A DNA stretch of 35,190 bases, taken from positions 1 to 35,190 of the forward strand of contig CAJCCX010000178.1 of NCBI GenBank assembly GCA_903961015.1. Direction: 5' to 3'. The notes beneath the pieces are model-generated. The model was not told where the DNA came from. It ran no database searches and was given only the letters and a program-made list of their open reading frames with translations. A program made the translations under genes and the position numbers. The DNA is from an uncultured bacterium (GTDB taxonomy: Bacteria; Planctomycetota; Phycisphaerae; Phycisphaerales; SM1A02). Shown piece by piece: positions 7,856 through 35,190 of this stretch (position 1 is the stretch's first letter; every line of letters begins with the position of its first letter).

Positions 7856-8672
7856 TGTGCTCATCATCCATCGTCATAAAATTGTCGAATGTTCCGTCGT
7901 AAAAGACCTTCCCATCGACGAGCATGACGACTCGAGGCTTCAGTCTGCGCAACAGCCCAGTGTCATGAGTGACGACGACACTCGTACGGGTGATGCCGGA
8001 TTCTGGCAGCGAATGATGTGTGGACTCGATCAGCAACTGAATGGTCGCGCACATTTCAGGATCGAGTCCAGCCGTTGGCTCGTCATAGAAAACAAGGACG
8101 GGATCCATCACAAGTGCACGCGCAATCGCCAGGCGTTTCGCCATTCCGCCTGACAGGTCATCGCGGTCGCGAAGCATGATCTCGTCTGCATTGAGACCGA
8201 CCGACTGCAAGGCAACCCGTGCCAGCGGCATAATCTGCTCGTCCGTTAGCCCTTTGATCTCTGACGGCCAGAATGCCAAATTATAAAAAACACTCCCACT
8301 GAGGAGCGCATTCTTCTGAAAAACAACCGCCCAGTGGACGCGCAATCGGTCGAGATCTTCGTCGGACATTCCGCTGAGATTCTCAAGCGGAGAACCTTTC
8401 ACATCATGATTGGCCATCATGACCTTCCCCGAATCGGGTTGAAAATGCCCCGTCATATGTTTCAACAAGACGGTTTTCCCGCAACCGCTGCCACCAATTA
8501 TCGCAATCATCTCCCCTCGACGCACAGTCAAATTGATGCCCCGGAGCACCATCTGATCGCTAAATGACTTGTAAACCTCCTGAATACTGATTTCGGTTGC
8601 TTGATCCGAATTTCGTGGATCGAAAGCGTCCACAGTCGCAGTGCCATTAGGAGTCTGTTTCGAGGGCTTCAT
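7797..8672 (-). CDS. ABC transporter ATP-binding protein, MlaF/Ttg2A-like
   Basis: Walker A GGSGCGKT, signature LSGGMAKR, Walker B VLVFYDEPTAGLDP, H-loop VVVTHD. Confidence 0.9.
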   Translation of the reverse strand: MKPSKQTPNGTATVDAFDPRNSDQATEISIQEVYKSFSDQMVLRGINLTVRRGEMIAIIGGSGCGKTVLLKHMTGHFQPDSGKVMMANHDVKGSPLENLSGMSDEDLDRLRVHWAVVFQKNALLSGSVFYNLAFWPSEIKGLTDEQIMPLARVALQSVGLNADEIMLRDRDDLSGGMAKRLAIARALVMDPVLVFYDEPTAGLDPEMCATIQLLIESTHHSLPESGITRTSVVVTHDTGLLRRLKPRVVMLVDGKVFYDGTFDNFMTMDDEHIKPYIEQMSALQEVVPVDD

Positions 8673-8744
8673 TGGAGTGCGTTGAGAATAGTGGCGCGCG
8701 CAACATAAGGGATGCTAAAAAATGAGCGCAAGAGACGAAAGGGA

Positions 8745-8756
8745 GTCCGATCGGAC
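8745..8756. promoter_or_regulatory. Perfect 12-bp palindrome GTCCGATCGGAC just upstream of the cytochrome promoter
   Basis: Direct reading. Confidence 0.5.
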
Positions 8757-23993: not shown

Positions 23994-24183
23994 GGGGTTT
24001 CTCGCTGTTCTCTGGAGTGTGAGTCGGGCGGTCAAGAGGCAATTCAGCGTCTCTCTGCCACGAAGACTTTGGAACCATAAAAACGTATGCAACAATTGCA
24101 AAGAACAAGACTATAAAAATGACTAACGCAATCATCGGCCAGAGACCGGCGAGTGCGAGCATCTGCAAGGGTGCGCGAATCAC
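23986..24183 (-). CDS. ccoQ: Small membrane protein in the CcoQ position
   Basis: 65 aa with one TM helix, overlapping the ends of ccoNO and ccoP. Confidence 0.6.
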   Translation of the reverse strand: MIRAPLQMLALAGLWPMIALVIFIVLFFAIVAYVFMVPKSSWQRDAELPLDRPTHTPENSEKPHA

Positions 24184-26468
24184 TGTGAACCTCCCGTTGG
24201 CGCTGCGGTGCCAGGAGCATTGACGGTTGGAGCTGCAGGCGACAACGCAATTGGCTTATTGAGATCTGTCCCAAGCCGTTGTAGATACGCAATCACAGCA
24301 AGCACTTTCGTGTCTTTGACATCCTCAAGACCGTCTGGCTTTCCATTTTCAGTGATCAACTGATCAAATACTTTTATTGCCTGCGCATGAGCCAAGTCCT
24401 GTGCGTTGGTAATCGTTTCCGGACTGTACGGAACGCCAATAGCGTGAAGCGTCTGAACGGCCTGCGTCGCTTGAGACCAATCGATCGGTTGATCAACAAG
24501 GTGTGCGAACCTCGGCATGATCGATCCAGGACTTGTATCAACAGGATTATTGAAATGGCGAAGATGCCAAAGTGCGCTTGGATTTCGAACGCCTTCTCGA
24601 GCAAGATCAGGACCAATCCGACGACTTCCCCAGAGGAACGGATGGTCAAACACACTCTCGCCAGGCTTTGAATACTCACCGTATCGCTCGGTTTCAGCAA
24701 CGAGCGGTCGAATCATCTGCGAGTGACAATTGACGCAACCTTCGCTGACATAAATATCACGCCCGATGCATTCGAGTGGCGTCAGCGGTTCGACAGTAGA
24801 AATGCGCGGAATATCGCTGCGAATCGTGAACATCGGGACAATCTCAAAGAGACTTGCGACCACGATCGCGATCGCGACCCACACGATAAATATCAGCGGT
24901 AATCCCTCAAATCCGCGGTGCCACCGAAGTCGCGCGAATCGATCGAGTGCGAATCCGACTGGCAGCACACTGTTGGGCGGCAATGTAGATGGCGGCGATG
25001 GATGTGGTCTCCACGACTTTGAGAGACGCGCCGCCTGATACACGGGCACGTCATACAAACGCGGACGACGCAACCATGTCATCAGTAAATTCGAACAACC
25101 GATCAATGCGGCGGTCAAATACAGCGTCCCTCCGATCGAACGAATCCAGTACAGCGGAGTCAATTTTGTAACCGTTGACAAGAAGTCGTACTGCAGAACG
25201 CCATCTGAATTGAACGTTCGCCACATGAGTCCCTGCGTCAATCCCGCCGCATAAATCGGGATGATGTACAAAATGATTCCAACCGTTGCGATCCAAAAGT
25301 GAAGGTTCACCCACGAAGGCTTTGCGATTGGCGCCTGAAACAATCGAGGGGCAAGCCAATACACCATGCCGAAGATCATGAATCCAACCCAACCTAGCGT
25401 TCCAGCATGAACATGGGCGATTGTCCAATCGGTGTAATGACTGAGCGCATTCACGCTCTTCACGCTGAGAAGCGGACCTTCAAAGGTGGTCATGCCATAA
25501 AAAGTAATTGCCACGACGAAAAATTTGAGAATCGGATCTTCCGCAACACGTCGCCACGCGCCGCGCAAAGTCAGAAGGCCGTTGATCATCCCACCCCAAG
25601 ATGGCATCCACAACATCAGACTGAACAACATTCCAACTGTCGAAGCCCAGTCGGGGAGCGATGTGTAATGGAGATGATGCGGCCCGGCCCAGATATAAAT
25701 GAAGACGAGACTCCAGAAGTGGACGATTGACAATCGGTATGAAAACACTGGCCGCCCTGCTGCTTTTGGAAGAAAGTAGTACATGATCCCTAGGAATGGG
25801 GTCGTCAGAAAGAACGCAACGGCGTTGTGGCCATACCACCACTGCATAAATGCGTCTTGGCTGCCCGCATAAATCGAATAACTGCGATGCCAATCAGCGG
25901 GCATGGCGAGATTATTGAAGATGTATAGAACAGCAATCGCCACAACCGTCGCGATGTAGAACCAGAGCGCGACATACAGATGTCGTTCTCGGCGAACAGC
26001 AATCGTGCCGAAGAAGTTCACCGCAAACACAACCCAAATCAACACGACCGCGATGTCGATCGGCCACTCGAGTTCTGCGTATTCCTTGCCTTGAGTAAAT
26101 CCAAGCGGCAAACTGACAGCGGCCGCAACGATGATCAATTGCCAACCCCAGAAATGAATCCGACTTAAGAGATCACTGAACATCCTCGCCTTGAGCAGGC
26201 GTTGACTGGAGTAATAAACCGCTGCGAAGATTGCATTCCCAGCGAATGCGAAAATGACCGCATTCGTATGGAGCGGACGAAGTCTCCCAAACGAGAGAAA
26301 CTCTCCAAGATTCGCCGACGGCATGGTGAGCTGCACGGCGATGATCACCCCCACCAACATGCCCACGACACCCCACAGCATCGTTACGAAGACGAATTTA
26401 CGAACAATGTCGTCGTCGTAACTGAACGATTCGAGCGTGGCCGGCGAGGTTTCTGGTTGCTGACTCAT
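24180..26468 (-). CDS. ccoNO: Fused cbb3 cytochrome c oxidase subunits I and II (CcoN-CcoO)
   Basis: CcoN-like 12-TM region (HTNAVIFAFAGNAIF, WWYGHNAVAFFLTTPFLG, YTDWTIAHVHAGTLGWVG) continuous with CcoO region (IGRDIYVSEGCVNCHSQMIRPLVAETERYGEYSKPGE). Confidence 0.95.
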   Translation of the reverse strand: MSQQPETSPATLESFSYDDDIVRKFVFVTMLWGVVGMLVGVIIAVQLTMPSANLGEFLSFGRLRPLHTNAVIFAFAGNAIFAAVYYSSQRLLKARMFSDLLSRIHFWGWQLIIVAAAVSLPLGFTQGKEYAELEWPIDIAVVLIWVVFAVNFFGTIAVRRERHLYVALWFYIATVVAIAVLYIFNNLAMPADWHRSYSIYAGSQDAFMQWWYGHNAVAFFLTTPFLGIMYYFLPKAAGRPVFSYRLSIVHFWSLVFIYIWAGPHHLHYTSLPDWASTVGMLFSLMLWMPSWGGMINGLLTLRGAWRRVAEDPILKFFVVAITFYGMTTFEGPLLSVKSVNALSHYTDWTIAHVHAGTLGWVGFMIFGMVYWLAPRLFQAPIAKPSWVNLHFWIATVGIILYIIPIYAAGLTQGLMWRTFNSDGVLQYDFLSTVTKLTPLYWIRSIGGTLYLTAALIGCSNLLMTWLRRPRLYDVPVYQAARLSKSWRPHPSPPSTLPPNSVLPVGFALDRFARLRWHRGFEGLPLIFIVWVAIAIVVASLFEIVPMFTIRSDIPRISTVEPLTPLECIGRDIYVSEGCVNCHSQMIRPLVAETERYGEYSKPGESVFDHPFLWGSRRIGPDLAREGVRNPSALWHLRHFNNPVDTSPGSIMPRFAHLVDQPIDWSQATQAVQTLHAIGVPYSPETITNAQDLAHAQAIKVFDQLITENGKPDGLEDVKDTKVLAVIAYLQRLGTDLNKPIALSPAAPTVNAPGTAAPTGGSQ

Positions 26469-26720: not shown

Positions 26721-27263
26721 ATGTACGGAAAGCAAACACAGCGTGCGATTGGGGCGATGAGTCGCCTTGCGGAAGTTTGGGATGGTGCCCAAACGCGCTT
26801 GTCAGCAGTTGATATTGCACAGCAGCGAGCCCTTCCTGGGCCGATGCTCGCAAAAATTTTGACATCACTCTCGCAAGCAAATCTCATCGTCGGCTCGCCA
26901 GGACCTGGCGGCGGATATGCACTTTCACGAGCGCCTGCGGAGATTTCGTTTCAGGAGGTGGCAGACGTCTTTGAACGTGAAGATCCATCAAACCTCTGCC
27001 CTTTCGGCGGAGGCATATGCGGCGTTGGCAAAAATTGTGCACTCCATGACAAGCTTGTTGAAGTGCAGCGAACTGTCAAAACTTTCCTGGCGGAGACAAC
27101 ATTTGAAATTTTTCGCCGCGCTGCACAGGACGAAGAAATTGATGCTGAAGCTGTTGCTGTTATCGCATCAGTCATGCCAAGCGCGATCGCAGGTGCCATC
27201 GCAAATGACAACGGAAAATTACCTCGTGAAAGTTTTCGAGTCCGCGAACGGCGGCCGCTCTAG
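26721..27263 (+). CDS. Rrf2 family transcriptional regulator with putative Fe-S ligands
   Basis: Winged-helix LAKILTSLSQANLIVGSPGPGGGYALSR; CPFGGGICGVGKNCALH; aaggag SD. Confidence 0.88.
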   Translation: MYGKQTQRAIGAMSRLAEVWDGAQTRLSAVDIAQQRALPGPMLAKILTSLSQANLIVGSPGPGGGYALSRAPAEISFQEVADVFEREDPSNLCPFGGGICGVGKNCALHDKLVEVQRTVKTFLAETTFEIFRRAAQDEEIDAEAVAVIASVMPSAIAGAIANDNGKLPRESFRVRERRPL

Positions 27264-28606: not shown

Positions 28607-29113
28607 TTGTACGGAAAGCAAACAGAATGTGCAATCGCAGCGGTCAGCAGACTTGCGGAAATTTATGACAACGGGGTATCGCGACTCAACGCTGAAGAAA
28701 TTGCTGTTGCGCGAGGACTCCAAGCTCCATTCGTTGCAAAGATATTGACTGCACTCTCCATGGCTGGAATCGTCCGCGGATCGCGTGGACCTGGTGGTGG
28801 ATATACCCTCACTCGCACGCCGAAAGAGATCACGCTTCGCGAAATCCATAACCTCTTCGAAAGACCAGACACAAGTCCAAACTGTCCATTCGGTGGCGGA
28901 ATATGTGGAGCTGGATCCCCCTGCGCATTGCACGATTCGCTCGTCGGCCTTCAGGGAAACGTTGACCAATTTCTTGACAAGACAACATTTGAGGCATTTC
29001 GCGTTGCATATCAGGAACAAGGACATCGCCCAGTTCCATCGGGAACAAAGCCGAAGGTTGCTCGCCGAGAAAGCTATCGCGCACGAAAGCCGCGGTCACC
29101 CAAAGCTGGGTGA
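28607..29113 (+). CDS. Rrf2 family transcriptional regulator, paralogue of 26721-27263, TTG start
   Basis: MYGKQTECAIAAVSRLAE...RGSRGPGGGYTLTRTPKEI...CPFGGGICGAGSPCALHDS; aaaggag SD. Confidence 0.87.
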   Translation: MYGKQTECAIAAVSRLAEIYDNGVSRLNAEEIAVARGLQAPFVAKILTALSMAGIVRGSRGPGGGYTLTRTPKEITLREIHNLFERPDTSPNCPFGGGICGAGSPCALHDSLVGLQGNVDQFLDKTTFEAFRVAYQEQGHRPVPSGTKPKVARRESYRARKPRSPKAG

Positions 29114-29117
29114 TTTC

Positions 29118-29171
29118 ACTGGGAGCAGTCGCTCCCTCGCAGTCGCTCCCTCGAAAACTCTGTCTCCCAGT
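29118..29171. terminator. Candidate bidirectional terminator/structured element: 8-bp inverted repeat ACTGGGAG/CTCCCAGT enclosing a 2 x 14 bp tandem repeat and an inner hairpin
   Basis: Direct reading at the convergent rrf2/hgd junction; no strong U-tract. Confidence 0.5.
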
Positions 29172-30403
29172 TAGGCCTTCACCCCAACGGTGGCGAACGC
29201 TTCACCCGTTGGAGCGAGCAAGTTTGCTGTTTGCGGACGCCAACTCGACACGTACTTGGGATCCTCAATACTGATTGCTTCCTGCGTTGGCGCGAGGGGG
29301 CGGAATGTATCGCACATCACAGCGAGTTCGTTCGTTGAATGCTGATCCATCGTTGCTTCAACGGTGCCAGGATGTGGACCGTGTGCAATTCCCAGAGGAT
29401 GCAATGTCATTGAACCCTCTTCAACTCCCCTCCTCGCCGTGTAGTGACCATCAGCATAAAACATCACTTCGTCGCTATCGACATTTGAATGCGCGTATGG
29501 CACACGAATGGCTTCTGGATGAAAGTCGAGTGGTCTTGGGCAGAAACAGCAAATCACCGCGTTGTGCCCTTCGAAGACCTGATGGACTGGTGGCGGTTGA
29601 TGCAATTGTCCAACGATCGGCGCGAAGTCGAGCGCATGAAAACAGTACGGCCAACAGACGCCGTCGAATCCAACGATGTCCATTGGATCGTGCGCATATC
29701 GAAAAGAATGCAGCGCTCCACGCGCCTTCACGATGACTTCATACAACCCATCAACCATTGCACTCTTGGGAGTTCCAAATGGCCCTTGAGGTGGACGAAT
29801 GTCACGCTCGCAGTACGGGCTATTCTCTAGAAATTGCCCGACGCCTCCCTGCCGATACCGTGGTGGCGCTTGCACATGTGACCCGTTGACAAACTCCATC
29901 GTCACAAACCGCGCACCAGGTGAGTCGAAATCCATTCGATAGATAGTTCCCTTTGGAATGACAACAAAGTCTCGCGCATGCATCTGAAGTCGTCCGAAAA
30001 TCGTGGTCAGCAATCCAGATCCACACTGAAGAAATATGCATTCATCAGCTTGACCGTTCTTGTACAGCGTCGGCATCGATTCCTTCGCAACGCACATCGA
30101 TATTTCGACATCTGCATTGCCAAGCAACACTTTACGACCTGTAATTGGATCGCCTTCTGGACGCAGATTCTGAGTGCGAAGATGCCGCATGCGAAGCGCA
30201 CGCTCCTGCACATACGTTGGCTCGACGACACGACTCATTTCGCATGACTCGACTGCCGTTGGGGGATGCCGGTGATAGATCGTGCTCATCGTGCCAGAGA
30301 ACCCTTCGTTCCCAAAGACTTCTTCGAAAACAAGATGGCCGTCGACCATATGACGAACATGACGCTTGTGAGGAATCGAACCACGTGCGATATAGAAAGA
30401 CAT
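29171..30403 (-). CDS. hmgA: Homogentisate 1,2-dioxygenase
   Basis: YIARGSIPHKRHVRHMVDGHLVFEEVFGNEGFSGTMSTIYHRHPPT; VIPKGTIYRMDF; HPLGIAHGPHPG. Confidence 0.85.
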   Translation of the reverse strand: MSFYIARGSIPHKRHVRHMVDGHLVFEEVFGNEGFSGTMSTIYHRHPPTAVESCEMSRVVEPTYVQERALRMRHLRTQNLRPEGDPITGRKVLLGNADVEISMCVAKESMPTLYKNGQADECIFLQCGSGLLTTIFGRLQMHARDFVVIPKGTIYRMDFDSPGARFVTMEFVNGSHVQAPPRYRQGGVGQFLENSPYCERDIRPPQGPFGTPKSAMVDGLYEVIVKARGALHSFRYAHDPMDIVGFDGVCWPYCFHALDFAPIVGQLHQPPPVHQVFEGHNAVICCFCPRPLDFHPEAIRVPYAHSNVDSDEVMFYADGHYTARRGVEEGSMTLHPLGIAHGPHPGTVEATMDQHSTNELAVMCDTFRPLAPTQEAISIEDPKYVSSWRPQTANLLAPTGEAFATVGVKA

Positions 30404-30458: not shown

Positions 30459-32567
30459 TCAGAGATTTCCGCGGCGCTCTTGCTCTAATTCCAACGCTTC
30501 AAAAAGGGCTTTAAAATTGCCTTTTCCGAAGCCTTTTGCACCTTTGCGCCCAATGATTTCGACGAATAGCGTTGGTCGGTCTTGGACAGGCTTTGTAAAT
30601 ACCTGAAGGAGATATCCCTCTTCGTCGCAATCGAGGAGAAGTCCAAGCGATTTCACGCGAGCATGCGACTCATCGATGGATCGCCCGAGCGCACCTTCAA
30701 CTCGATCCCAAACACTTTCGTAATACGTGTCGGGCAATCCTAAAAACGCAACGCCACGACGGCGCAGTTCGCCGACGGTTGCGAGTGCGTCACTCGTTCG
30801 AAATGCCAAATGCTGGACGCCAGGAGTTCCGTCATGCCAATCCAAATACTCCTGAACCTGACTCTTACGCAACCCTGCTGCCGGCTCATTGATTGGAATC
30901 TTGAGGACGCTTCGACCGCCGTCCATCACCTTGGACATCAACGCTGAATATTTCGTTGAAATATCTTGGTCATCAAAGTGCTTGAACAACTTGAACCCAA
31001 ACACTTCGCTATACCAGTCCACCCATGTATTCATTTGGCCAAGCCCCACATTGGCAACGCAGTGATCGACAGCACAAAGGCCGCATGGTCGCTGGATATT
31101 CAGGTCATTCATTGGATCATTGACGACCTTTCTGAAATTCGGCGCGAACAACTCCCCCATATTCCCATTCACATCACCACATCGACCGCGGCGACTGACA
31201 AGGCTGTGAACGCATCGACCAAATGCCTGAATGCCTGAAAAAACAGCGACATCGTCGCCATCACGAATTTCAACTGGCTCGTATGCACTCTTCGCACCAT
31301 TGCGCAAAGCCTGCTCATACGCAGCTTCTGCGTCGCGCACAGTGAAAGCGACATCGCTGACTCCGTCACCATATCGCGCAACATCCAAACTGGCGGGATG
31401 ATTTGGCGTCAAGCCCGTCATCAGCATGAGGCGAATGTCGCCTTGAACAAGAAGATGGCATGCTTTATCGCGACTCCCTGTTGTCAGATCGCTGAATTGA
31501 TCCGCCATGAATCCGAAGTTCGCTCCGTAGTACGTACGAGCTTGGAGCGCATTTCCAACATGCAGTCCAATGTGATCGACTCCAAGAAGCGCCAGTGGAT
31601 CTGCGGGCGCACTTTGAAGGAGGGTTGGCGATGCAGAATGTGTTACAGCATGCGATGCATGATTGCCATTTGCAGAGTGTTCTTTGTTCTTCGAACAAGC
31701 CGAACCATTTCGACACGTTCCACCGCAACCAACCTTTGGTGCGCCTTCGGTGTCGAGGTAGGAATTGATTTGAGCCAAATCATCGAGCACGAATAGTTGC
31801 TTCTGGAAGTGATCGATTTCGAACGATGTCGCGGCGACAATCGCAGGATCAAATGGGCGCCGAATGACTTCGGGCGACTGCAAGCAATAAAGTGATTCCG
31901 CAGGCGACGATGCAAGACCCGCACCAAGAATTCGAATGTGATCTTGCTCGCGAATCAGGCCAAATTCAACAGTAAACCAGAGCACATTGGTCAGGCGTAC
32001 GAGTTGTGCGGCATCCGCCTTGACTCCCGCGTGACCGAACCTTTCCAAGATTCGGGCCATCTGCTTGTCTGCACAGAGCGGCGTGTGGCCAAAGATGTCA
32101 TGAAATGCGTCAGGTTCTGGCAAGTATCCCTCGTGCTCGGGATCGCGAACAACGACCGTCACAGGGAGGATCTTGCGAGCGAGGCACGCGAAAAATGCAC
32201 GGGGGGGCAAGTAACCAGTCACCGCACGAACTTCCCACCCCGTCAGCGATTTGAGTTTATTCGAAACGTCTGCGATCACTGGAACATGGTCGTGGTCAAT
32301 CTCAAGGGCACGCGCTCCATCGAGCCAATGCGTACTTGCATGGAGCGGAAGGTATGTACGTTGCTGTTGGCAGAGTCGACTCCAAATCTGATGCTCACGG
32401 GGCTCATATGCGACAAAGTTCTGCCGAACAAATATTGTCTCTAACTCTGGAAGATCGTCTGATCCAGTTTCGTATTTCGCAAGTGCGACGCGAGAGGCTG
32501 CGACCTCCAAAGGATCCAACACACAAGGGTGAACGATTGTCGGCATTGATTTCATTGCAAATCTCAT
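30459..32567 (-). CDS. Bifunctional fusion: N-terminal phenylalanine 4-hydroxylase, C-terminal 4-hydroxyphenylpyruvate dioxygenase
   Basis: PAH: GYLPPRAFFACLA, EPDAFHDIFGHTPL, LWFTVEFGLI. HPPD: VDHIGLHVGNALQARTYYGANFGF, VDHCVANVGLGQMNTWVDWYSEVFGF, GVQHLAFRTSD, LLQVFTKPVQDRPTLFVEIIGRKGAKGFGKGNFKALFEALE. Confidence 0.93.
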   Translation of the reverse strand: MRFAMKSMPTIVHPCVLDPLEVAASRVALAKYETGSDDLPELETIFVRQNFVAYEPREHQIWSRLCQQQRTYLPLHASTHWLDGARALEIDHDHVPVIADVSNKLKSLTGWEVRAVTGYLPPRAFFACLARKILPVTVVVRDPEHEGYLPEPDAFHDIFGHTPLCADKQMARILERFGHAGVKADAAQLVRLTNVLWFTVEFGLIREQDHIRILGAGLASSPAESLYCLQSPEVIRRPFDPAIVAATSFEIDHFQKQLFVLDDLAQINSYLDTEGAPKVGCGGTCRNGSACSKNKEHSANGNHASHAVTHSASPTLLQSAPADPLALLGVDHIGLHVGNALQARTYYGANFGFMADQFSDLTTGSRDKACHLLVQGDIRLMLMTGLTPNHPASLDVARYGDGVSDVAFTVRDAEAAYEQALRNGAKSAYEPVEIRDGDDVAVFSGIQAFGRCVHSLVSRRGRCGDVNGNMGELFAPNFRKVVNDPMNDLNIQRPCGLCAVDHCVANVGLGQMNTWVDWYSEVFGFKLFKHFDDQDISTKYSALMSKVMDGGRSVLKIPINEPAAGLRKSQVQEYLDWHDGTPGVQHLAFRTSDALATVGELRRRGVAFLGLPDTYYESVWDRVEGALGRSIDESHARVKSLGLLLDCDEEGYLLQVFTKPVQDRPTLFVEIIGRKGAKGFGKGNFKALFEALELEQERRGNL

Positions 32568-32669: not shown

Positions 32670-34175
32670 TCACATCAGCCAAGTACAGACCACTGTGATC
32701 ACAATCACCGCGCAGAGATTCAACAAAAAACCAACCTTGATCATTTCTCGAACTGGAATCAATCCCGTTGAAAAAATGATTGCATTGGGCGGCGTCCCAA
32801 CAGGAAGCATGAACGCGAGACTTGCCCCAAGTACTGCGGTGACGACCAATTTCTCAGGAGCGATTCCAAGCCCTGGCGCCATCGCACCGAGAATCGGGAC
32901 GGCCGTTGCGGCAAGCGCCGTATTCGAAGCAATCTCACTTGCGAAAATCATAATCGTCGCAACTCCTGCAATGATGAAAGGTTCAGGAACCCCACCGAGC
33001 CCGGTGACGCTTTGAGCGATCATCTGTGAAACACCCGTTCGCTGCATCGCGTCGGCGAGGCTCAGTCCACCGCCAAAGAGAATGAAGACACCCCACGGCA
33101 ATCGCTCCGTTTGCGACCACGGCACAATGGGCGTTGCACTGCCCCGCGCTGCTGGCAATATGAAGAGCGCAATCGCTGCCGCGACGGCGATAAGCCCATC
33201 CTTCAGCATCAAATCTGGAACCAAGGATTTAAGGAACGGTGCACCAACCCACGAGACCACTGCAACTCCAAAGATAATGAGGGTCAATTTTGCCGCGCGG
33301 GTCAGTGGAACTTGAGGGGATCCGGGGCTTGAACCTGCTTCGCCGATGTCCGTGTTCGGTCGGCGCAATCCATGAAATGGAAAGACGAACCAGAAAATGA
33401 ACTGGGCACAGAGCATCATCAGAACTCCAGCCGGAACTCCGACCGAAGCCCACCGAACAAAGTCCATGCTGCCACCGTTCGCATTGATCCACTCGACTCC
33501 GATGGGATTGGGTGGACTGCCAAGCACGGACATCACACCGCCGATGCTGGCGCCGTATGCGATTGCTAACAGAACCGCCCGCTGAAAATTTGCCGTGGCC
33601 TTGATGGTCGCGCCATCGGCCGTCCCCTTGACTGCATACATGGCAACTGCGGCAGTTGCGAGAGGCAACATCATGGCCGCCGTCGCTGTATTGGAAACCC
33701 ATGCGCTGATCAGCGCTGCCACGATCAAGAAGGCTGCAACAATTCGACCGGGCGAATCTCCGATACAGCGAATCGTCAATAACAAGAAGCGCTTTCCAAG
33801 TCCGTGTTGCTCAAGCGCAATCCCCAGCACACATCCACCTGCAAAGAGGAAAATGACGTCGTTCGCATATGGCGCTAAAACTTGCTCCGCCGTTGATGCA
33901 CGCAAGAGTGGGAGCACCACGATTGGCAATAGACCCGTCACTGCAAGATCGACCGCCTGCGTCGCCCACCAGATTGCCATCCAACCAAGCAATCCGATCA
34001 CCATCGCCCCTGCCGAGGAAAGGGCCGCTGAATCAGACGTGATTGGACGGAAGTACAACCAGAACAAGAATCCCACGAGGGGTCCGATGAACAGCGAGAC
34101 CAGTCTCCGCGTGGTCCATGAATCATTGCAGGATTCATTTGATTTGCTCACATCGAGCAGAATACCTAACCGCAT
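32670..34175 (-). CDS. SLC13/DASS family anion transporter
   Basis: Polytopic; AALISAWVSNTATAAMMLPLA, ASEIASNTALAATAVPILG, LAFMLPVGTPPNAIIFSTG; upstream alternative start at 34217. Confidence 0.9.
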   Translation of the reverse strand: MRLGILLDVSKSNESCNDSWTTRRLVSLFIGPLVGFLFWLYFRPITSDSAALSSAGAMVIGLLGWMAIWWATQAVDLAVTGLLPIVVLPLLRASTAEQVLAPYANDVIFLFAGGCVLGIALEQHGLGKRFLLLTIRCIGDSPGRIVAAFLIVAALISAWVSNTATAAMMLPLATAAVAMYAVKGTADGATIKATANFQRAVLLAIAYGASIGGVMSVLGSPPNPIGVEWINANGGSMDFVRWASVGVPAGVLMMLCAQFIFWFVFPFHGLRRPNTDIGEAGSSPGSPQVPLTRAAKLTLIIFGVAVVSWVGAPFLKSLVPDLMLKDGLIAVAAAIALFILPAARGSATPIVPWSQTERLPWGVFILFGGGLSLADAMQRTGVSQMIAQSVTGLGGVPEPFIIAGVATIMIFASEIASNTALAATAVPILGAMAPGLGIAPEKLVVTAVLGASLAFMLPVGTPPNAIIFSTGLIPVREMIKVGFLLNLCAVIVITVVCTWLM

Positions 34176-34223
34176 CTCACTGGTTATCCAATGAACAAAC
34201 GTGATCAGCCAAATCACACTGGA

Positions 34224-34688
34224 TCAATCAGAACTTTTGGATGCGACGACTGCACCCCACGATGCGATGCTTCCGCGAAGATCACTCATGGATACTCGTG
34301 CATGAGACTCGTCCAAGAATGCGATGATGCCCGACCCCATTGCAGTGTGTGCCGAGGACTTCACTAGAAACGAAGCGGATTCGGCAGGCAACCAAGCCTT
34401 CCCCTGATAATCGCGAACAAATTGCGAAGTGACTTTCAATGTTGTATTCGCCTTCATGTAATCAAGCATGCAGCCGATATCGTCAAAGACAACTGCCTCA
34501 ACACCATCTGGACTCCCCACCAGCAAACATCCCGCACAGCGCTGATCAACAATACTCATCTTGCATTCTGCGCATTCATCTCGACCAAGTCGCAGCTCTG
34601 GGGGGCCCACTGGTATCGCAGGAGCGCATCCATTTAAAACCACGAATCCCGTGACGAGTAGCCAAGTCATCAACTGATTGCGGCTCAT
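34224..34688 (-). CDS. nosL: NosL-like copper lipoprotein
   Basis: Lipobox VLNGCAP, DECAECKMSIVDQR, VVFDDIGCMLDYM; ATGA overlap with the upstream gene. Confidence 0.85.
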   Translation of the reverse strand: MSRNQLMTWLLVTGFVVLNGCAPAIPVGPPELRLGRDECAECKMSIVDQRCAGCLLVGSPDGVEAVVFDDIGCMLDYMKANTTLKVTSQFVRDYQGKAWLPAESASFLVKSSAHTAMGSGIIAFLDESHARVSMSDLRGSIASWGAVVASKSSD

Positions 34689-35035
34689 ATTGGGGACCTT
34701 CTCGAGAAGATTGACGCAGCAACTGTCAGTGGAAGAATGATCCATAAGACCATGACGCATGCAAAGATCCATGTCACACCTGCGCCCCATATGTCTGTTG
34801 CATACAGCCCGGCTGGACCAAGAACGTCGAGGGATGTATCTGAACTAACGAGCGCCCACATCTTGAAAACTTGCATCGGGTTGACCAAACTGAGCGCAAA
34901 AAGATTTTCAATTCGCATTCGAAGTGCGACTGCGCCAGCCATCAATCCAAGGTCACTGACGAAGACAAGCGTGAGCCACGAAAAGATTGCGACGCCCATC
35001 GCCACACTGCTCTTGCGCGTGGCGACCGAGATCAT
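34685..35035 (-). CDS. NosY-like ABC-2 permease, C-terminal half only
   Basis: ATRKSSVAMGVAIFSWLTLVFVSDLGLM...LSLVNPMQVFKMWAL...LGPAGLYA resembles the NosY C-terminus; immediately upstream of nosL; expected N-terminal half not seen in frame. Confidence 0.6.
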   Translation of the reverse strand: MISVATRKSSVAMGVAIFSWLTLVFVSDLGLMAGAVALRMRIENLFALSLVNPMQVFKMWALVSSDTSLDVLGPAGLYATDIWGAGVTWIFACVMVLWIILPLTVAASIFSRRSPI

Positions 35036-35190
35036 CAGTCCAGTTCCAATACTTCGCGTCCGCGTGGGTGTAGACCAACCAATCGAGACGGAGCGTCCAA
35101 AGATCCGTTGTCTGCATTTCTGTTATCGCGGAAATTGTTGGTTTTCATGGTGTTTTCCGCCGCACGATGCGCAATGTTGCATCAGCAGAA

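Follow-up and report, generated by a model that had tools for sequence, protein, structure and literature searches.

The stretch of DNA analysed here (the window, 35,190 nucleotides from an uncultured bacterium) carries a gene that joins two normally separate enzymes of phenylalanine breakdown, phenylalanine hydroxylase (PAH) and 4-hydroxyphenylpyruvate dioxygenase (HPPD), in a genuine translational fusion that is conserved as a gene. It occupies positions 30459–32567 of the minus strand as one unbroken frame of 702 codons, the plus-strand reading of the same interval being full of stops. An earlier note had proposed a single-ORF fusion here without naming its strand, a proposal upheld by the 702-residue minus-strand frame and by profile matches to both domains. 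The domain search that it had suggested placed a Biopterin_H domain (PF00351, 152 bits against a gathering cut-off of 22.7) at residues 52–269 (31761–32414, minus strand) and an HPPD domain at residues 329–702 (30462–31583, minus strand), where the TIGR01263 4HPPD equivalog model is passed with 352 bits against a cut-off of 277. An AlphaFold2 model of the protein, built on 43 aligned sequences (mean pLDDT 86.9, pTM 0.58), contains two confident domains and an unstructured segment with pLDDT below 50 at residues 279–320 (31608–31733, minus strand), which forms a disordered, Cys/His-rich linker with the core CGGTCRNGSAC. We consider it probable that this gene encodes a functional PAH-HPPD fusion derived from a phhA-hpd-hgd operon, and that its benefit lies in matched expression and co-localisation.

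The closest solved structures to the second half are bacterial and animal HPPDs. Foldseek aligned this half with human HPPD (3isq) at a target TM-score of 0.90, and the best 50 matches listed were all HPPD or hydroxymandelate synthase, with HPPD structures ranked first. In the alignment to Streptomyces avermitilis HPPD (1t47), H502 (31062–31064), H586 (30810–30812) and E670 (30558–30560, all minus strand) of the fusion fall on H187, H270 and E349, the iron ligands of that enzyme; the earlier reading of this site as intact thus holds for all three residues. We infer that the HPPD domain converts 4-hydroxyphenylpyruvate to homogentisate. The fusion shares with the S. avermitilis enzyme the full-length domain, the iron ligands and the C-terminal GFGKGNF helix, but it differs in possessing an N-terminal PAH domain and in being a second copy beside a separate HPPD.

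Since the best 50 Foldseek matches listed comprised only HPPD and hydroxymandelate synthase, confirmation of the PAH half came from sequence comparison. By this measure its nearest solved structures are bacterial PAHs, foremost that of Chromobacterium violaceum, ahead of tryptophan and tyrosine hydroxylases. H156 (32100–32102), H161 (32085–32087) and E201 (31965–31967, all minus strand) align with H138, H143 and E184 of the C. violaceum enzyme (1ltu; 4etl was also used in the alignment), its iron ligands, so that this metal site, too, is complete as first described. Residues that correspond to the substrate site of PAH are likewise retained across the fusions, namely Arg in VVVRDP, Trp in WFTVEFGL and the Ser-Ser pair in GAGLxSS. 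Nevertheless, the PAH half scores below the curated bacterial-PAH equivalog cut-offs (231 against 247 for NF008877 and 218 against 265 for TIGR01267), as do the PAH halves of all distinct fusions scored (222–231 against 247). One of these cut-offs is passed by the separate PAH that the genome also encodes (294 against 247). Because these cut-offs were missed, we file the PAH half in the wider hydroxylase family and describe it as working like PAH. It likely hydroxylates phenylalanine; its scores just below the PAH cut-offs and its faster change relative to the HPPD half make this the least certain step of the proposed pathway.

The fusion occurs in metagenome-assembled genomes (MAGs) of several species, two genera and one family, each time followed by the same homogentisate dioxygenase-like gene. 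A near-identical locus (L004) matches the window at 99.94% nucleotide identity over 8.8 kb on a 130-kb contig from an independent MAG, and another (L005) at 98.3% on a contig of 203 kb. Within the genus of the window the same fusion is present in G018, G019 and G008, and a second genus carries it in G106 and G111, the protein being 66% identical to the window copy in G008 and 73% identical in G106 and G111; in G114, also outside the genus of the window, the copy is cut by the contig start. Linkers of 54, 63 and 80 residues by one yardstick are found across these fusions, all of them open and all with a Cys-rich core. Because the family also contains unfused adjacent genes, a single assembly or sequencing error that removed a stop codon could in principle have joined two neighbours, but recurrence in independent assemblies of different species and genera, at 66–100% identity and with open linkers of three lengths, makes such an artefact exceedingly improbable and we reject it; the missed stop or frameshift about which the earlier note had been wary is excluded on the same grounds. 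When the fusion was compared with those of G008 and G106, both catalytic parts gave pN of 0.10–0.30 and pS of 0.75–0.82, with synonymous sites near saturation, values which indicate that the fusion is under purifying selection. One genome of the same genus (G013) contains a broken fusion remnant beside its copy of the downstream gene (L077, G013:C4:16000-32000, at about 7908–8750, minus strand), consisting of PAH residues 17–77 and then, in a different frame, HPPD residues 484–702. The downstream gene is kept there (76% identity), and the remnant reflects either decay of the fusion or an assembly error at this site.

Two further readings accept the open frame and differ on what its product does. 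In one, the PAH half has drifted, leaving a working HPPD attached to a hydroxylase domain of altered substrate or of regulatory, phenylalanine-sensing function. A shift in substrate could have occurred, given that this half falls below the equivalog cut-offs in every distinct fusion scored, sits on a long branch and changes faster in amino acid sequence than the HPPD half, and a redundant PAH is encoded elsewhere in the genome. We regard this reading as rather unlikely, as the three iron ligands and the VVVRDP, WFTVEFGL and GAGLxSS substrate-site residues are kept, bacterial PAHs are the closest solved structures ahead of tryptophan and tyrosine hydroxylases, and pN for the PAH half (0.24–0.30) is still far under pS (0.75). 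In the other reading, the single ORF yields two proteins, with HPPD produced from an internal start or by cleavage within the linker, whose disorder (residues 279–320) would permit it to be cut. The linker in the window gene lacks ATG, GTG and TTG codons, which makes ordinary internal initiation of HPPD unlikely, and the Cys motif of the linker is kept across species; this reading is consequently very unlikely. In G106 the Cys/His-rich sequence of the linker is CGGACKNGGACSGKAHHDHHNH, its counterpart in the window being CGGTCRNGSAC..., and a similar Cys-rich motif is borne on the tail of the lone PAH of G105 (L089). The linker may possibly bind metal.

Immediately downstream of the fusion, after 55 nucleotides, lies a homogentisate 1,2-dioxygenase-like gene, here HGD2 (29171–30403, minus strand), which is probably its operon partner and which shares 80–81% identity with the gene beside the fusion in another genus and in another species. 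The position of this gene and its HgmA_N and HgmA_C Pfam domains, both over their cut-offs, bear out the earlier assignment of a homogentisate dioxygenase at this point, but the product misses the TIGR01015 (hmgA) equivalog cut-off by a wide margin (69 against 511 bits). The other homogentisate dioxygenase-like gene of the genome, 54% identical to HGD2, scores just 59 bits despite sharing a contig with the separate HPPD and fumarylacetoacetase, and because this pathway-linked copy scores so low, the coverage of the model may not extend to so divergent a group. The fumarylacetoacetase passes its own cut-off. Together with the separate PAH and HPPD, which are 45% and 58% identical to the respective fused domains, these genes establish the fusion as a second copy, paralogous to separate genes in the same genome. 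Pterin carbinolamine dehydratase is also encoded, as are several class I/II aminotransferases that are candidates for the middle step of the pathway.

Based on the established phenylalanine/homogentisate pathway, the PAH domain would convert phenylalanine to tyrosine using tetrahydropterin, O2 and Fe(II), a separate aminotransferase would convert tyrosine to 4-hydroxyphenylpyruvate, the HPPD domain would convert the latter to homogentisate and HGD2 would open its ring. That the fused enzymes flank the transamination of tyrosine had been pointed out before, and we agree. Because this step lies between the fused ones, we favour co-localisation and matched expression over tunnelling as the benefit of the fusion, and direct channelling between the domains is unlikely. 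Translation as one polypeptide would fix a 1:1 ratio of two O2/Fe(II)-dependent steps and place them together, and oligomerisation of HPPD would cluster the PAH domains.

The likely precursor of the fusion can be recognised within the same family. Consecutive, unfused PAH, HPPD and HGD genes occur in G060, G061, G074 and G096 in the order of the fusion locus, and in G005 and G088 at least PAH is followed by an unfused HPPD. The PAH and HPPD reading frames overlap by 4 nucleotides in G005 and G074, and are separated by an 18-nucleotide gap but in one frame in G096. Loss of the stop codon and of the short phhA/hpd gap in an ancestral phhA-hpd-hgd operon would yield the fusion, and this is its most likely origin on the basis of gene order and parsimony. 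In phylogenetic trees, all fused HPPDs group in one clade (100/100); the fused PAHs, on a long branch, likewise group in one clade (100/100), which also takes in the lone, long-branched PAH of G105. The fusion clade is not firmly joined to the operon-type genes, and the proposed origin therefore rests on gene order and not on phylogeny.

The architecture survey of Planctomycetota suggested earlier was run on samples and confined the fusion to two genera of one family. It covered all 181 genomes of the family, 400 genomes of the order (163 genera) and 392 genomes of the phylum, the last searched with the PAH family and with long frames checked, and was extended to 399 genomes from the phylum of an alphaproteobacterial locus and 247 from the phylum of an acidobacterial locus; some genomes belong to more than one of these sets, and strict thresholds applied beyond the family. 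No further PAH-HPPD fusion was found in the sampled Planctomycetota and the two other phyla, the groups for which its rarity is shown. Long frames around PAH matches elsewhere in the phylum, in G179, G190, G194, G201, G582, G678 and others contained no HPPD match, the PAH and HPPD of G426 are overlapping separate genes, and the best candidate around the acidobacterial locus (G1407) proved to be two genes that share a frame but are separated by three stops. One strand of G1407 (L121, 211–4698) carries, one after another, an aminotransferase-like frame that by eye looks to be of the branched-chain type, PAH, HPPD and a frame similar to HGD. A genome of the same phylum provided an HPPD that is 64% identical to the fused one (L120, G1175:C181:1451-2596), a case of either transfer or contamination. 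Among the best matches in plasmid records, only adjacent separate genes were found, in Sphingobium.

Phh, Hpd and Hmg have long been described as modules of one catabolic route (PMC1173090). Public records already annotate adjacent phhA and hpd genes, and no report of a PAH-HPPD fusion was found among open-licence papers. The fusion thus appears to be a rare, undescribed architecture of well-known enzymes. The novelty suggested by the earlier note stands within those papers and the sampled genomes; that the fusion is a second copy, has unfused operon relatives and is confined to two genera in the genomes searched lay beyond what that note could see. Bacterial PhhA, as exemplified by the C. violaceum enzyme (1ltu), belongs to the same sequence family, has the same 2-His-1-Glu iron site and in some bacteria neighbours HPPD, whereas the fusion is covalently tied to HPPD through a Cys/His-rich linker and falls below the PhhA equivalog cut-offs. 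In the phhA-hpd(-hmgA) clusters of planctomycete relatives, Sphingobium plasmids and G1407, PAH and HPPD are likewise neighbours, and the planctomycete and G1407 clusters share the PAH, HPPD, HGD-like order of the fusion locus, but the enzymes are encoded by separate genes instead of one polypeptide. The PRK14056-type aromatic amino acid hydroxylase (NF010657, about 580 residues) also combines PAH with extra sequence; HPPD is outside that model, and the fusion scores just 158 bits against its cut-off of 346. The 3-dehydroshikimate dehydratase QuiC (NF042435) resembles the fusion in being a two-domain protein with an HPPD-like C-terminal half, but its N-terminal partner is unrelated and the fusion scores just 59 bits against a cut-off of 1200.

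By joining two iron-dependent oxygenases that flank a missing middle step, the fusion offers a test of what fusions of non-consecutive enzymes are used for, and suggests that their value may reside in stoichiometry and co-localisation, not in tunnelling. Together with the relatives whose genes touch without being fused, it makes up a before-and-after series, and it would supply a one-protein part for routes leading from phenylalanine towards homogentisate.

Upstream of the fusion lie a DASS-family sodium-coupled anion symporter gene (32670–34217, minus strand; TIGR00785, 251 bits against 199) and a nosL-like gene (34224–34790, minus strand; Pfam NosL). The latter ends a nosZ-nosD-F-Y-L cluster of the Sec-dependent nitrous-oxide reductase type, which two genera carry immediately upstream of the fusion locus and which covers 34224–35190 here and continues beyond the window. 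On the homologous contig of G018 (L118), the series runs on with genes for a nosF-like ABC-ATPase, nosD (394 bits against 300) and nosZ (829 against 625). G106 has the same nos genes ahead of the fusion (nosZ 89% identical) but lacks the symporter, and in G008 the upstream gene differs. Any connection of the fusion with nitrous-oxide or low-oxygen respiration is no more than suggestive. One could further imagine that the fusion, its Cys/His-rich linker and the vicinity of nitrous-oxide-reductase genes mark a specialised second phenylalanine-to-homogentisate module, in which the linker would bind metal (e.g. iron for both active sites) or dock the aminotransferase to form a three-enzyme particle tuned to low oxygen, but this scenario is speculative and quite unlikely. 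On the other side, an Rrf2-family regulator gene (28607–29113, plus strand; Pfam Rrf2, 83.8 bits) is convergent with HGD2. It is one of two similar Rrf2 regulators (26721–27263 and 28607–29113) with a C-x6-C-x5-C motif that flank an MFS transporter gene in the region adjoining HGD2. A single ORF at 24180–26468 contains COX1 and FixO domains, and constitutes a fusion of subunits I and II of cbb3 oxidase.
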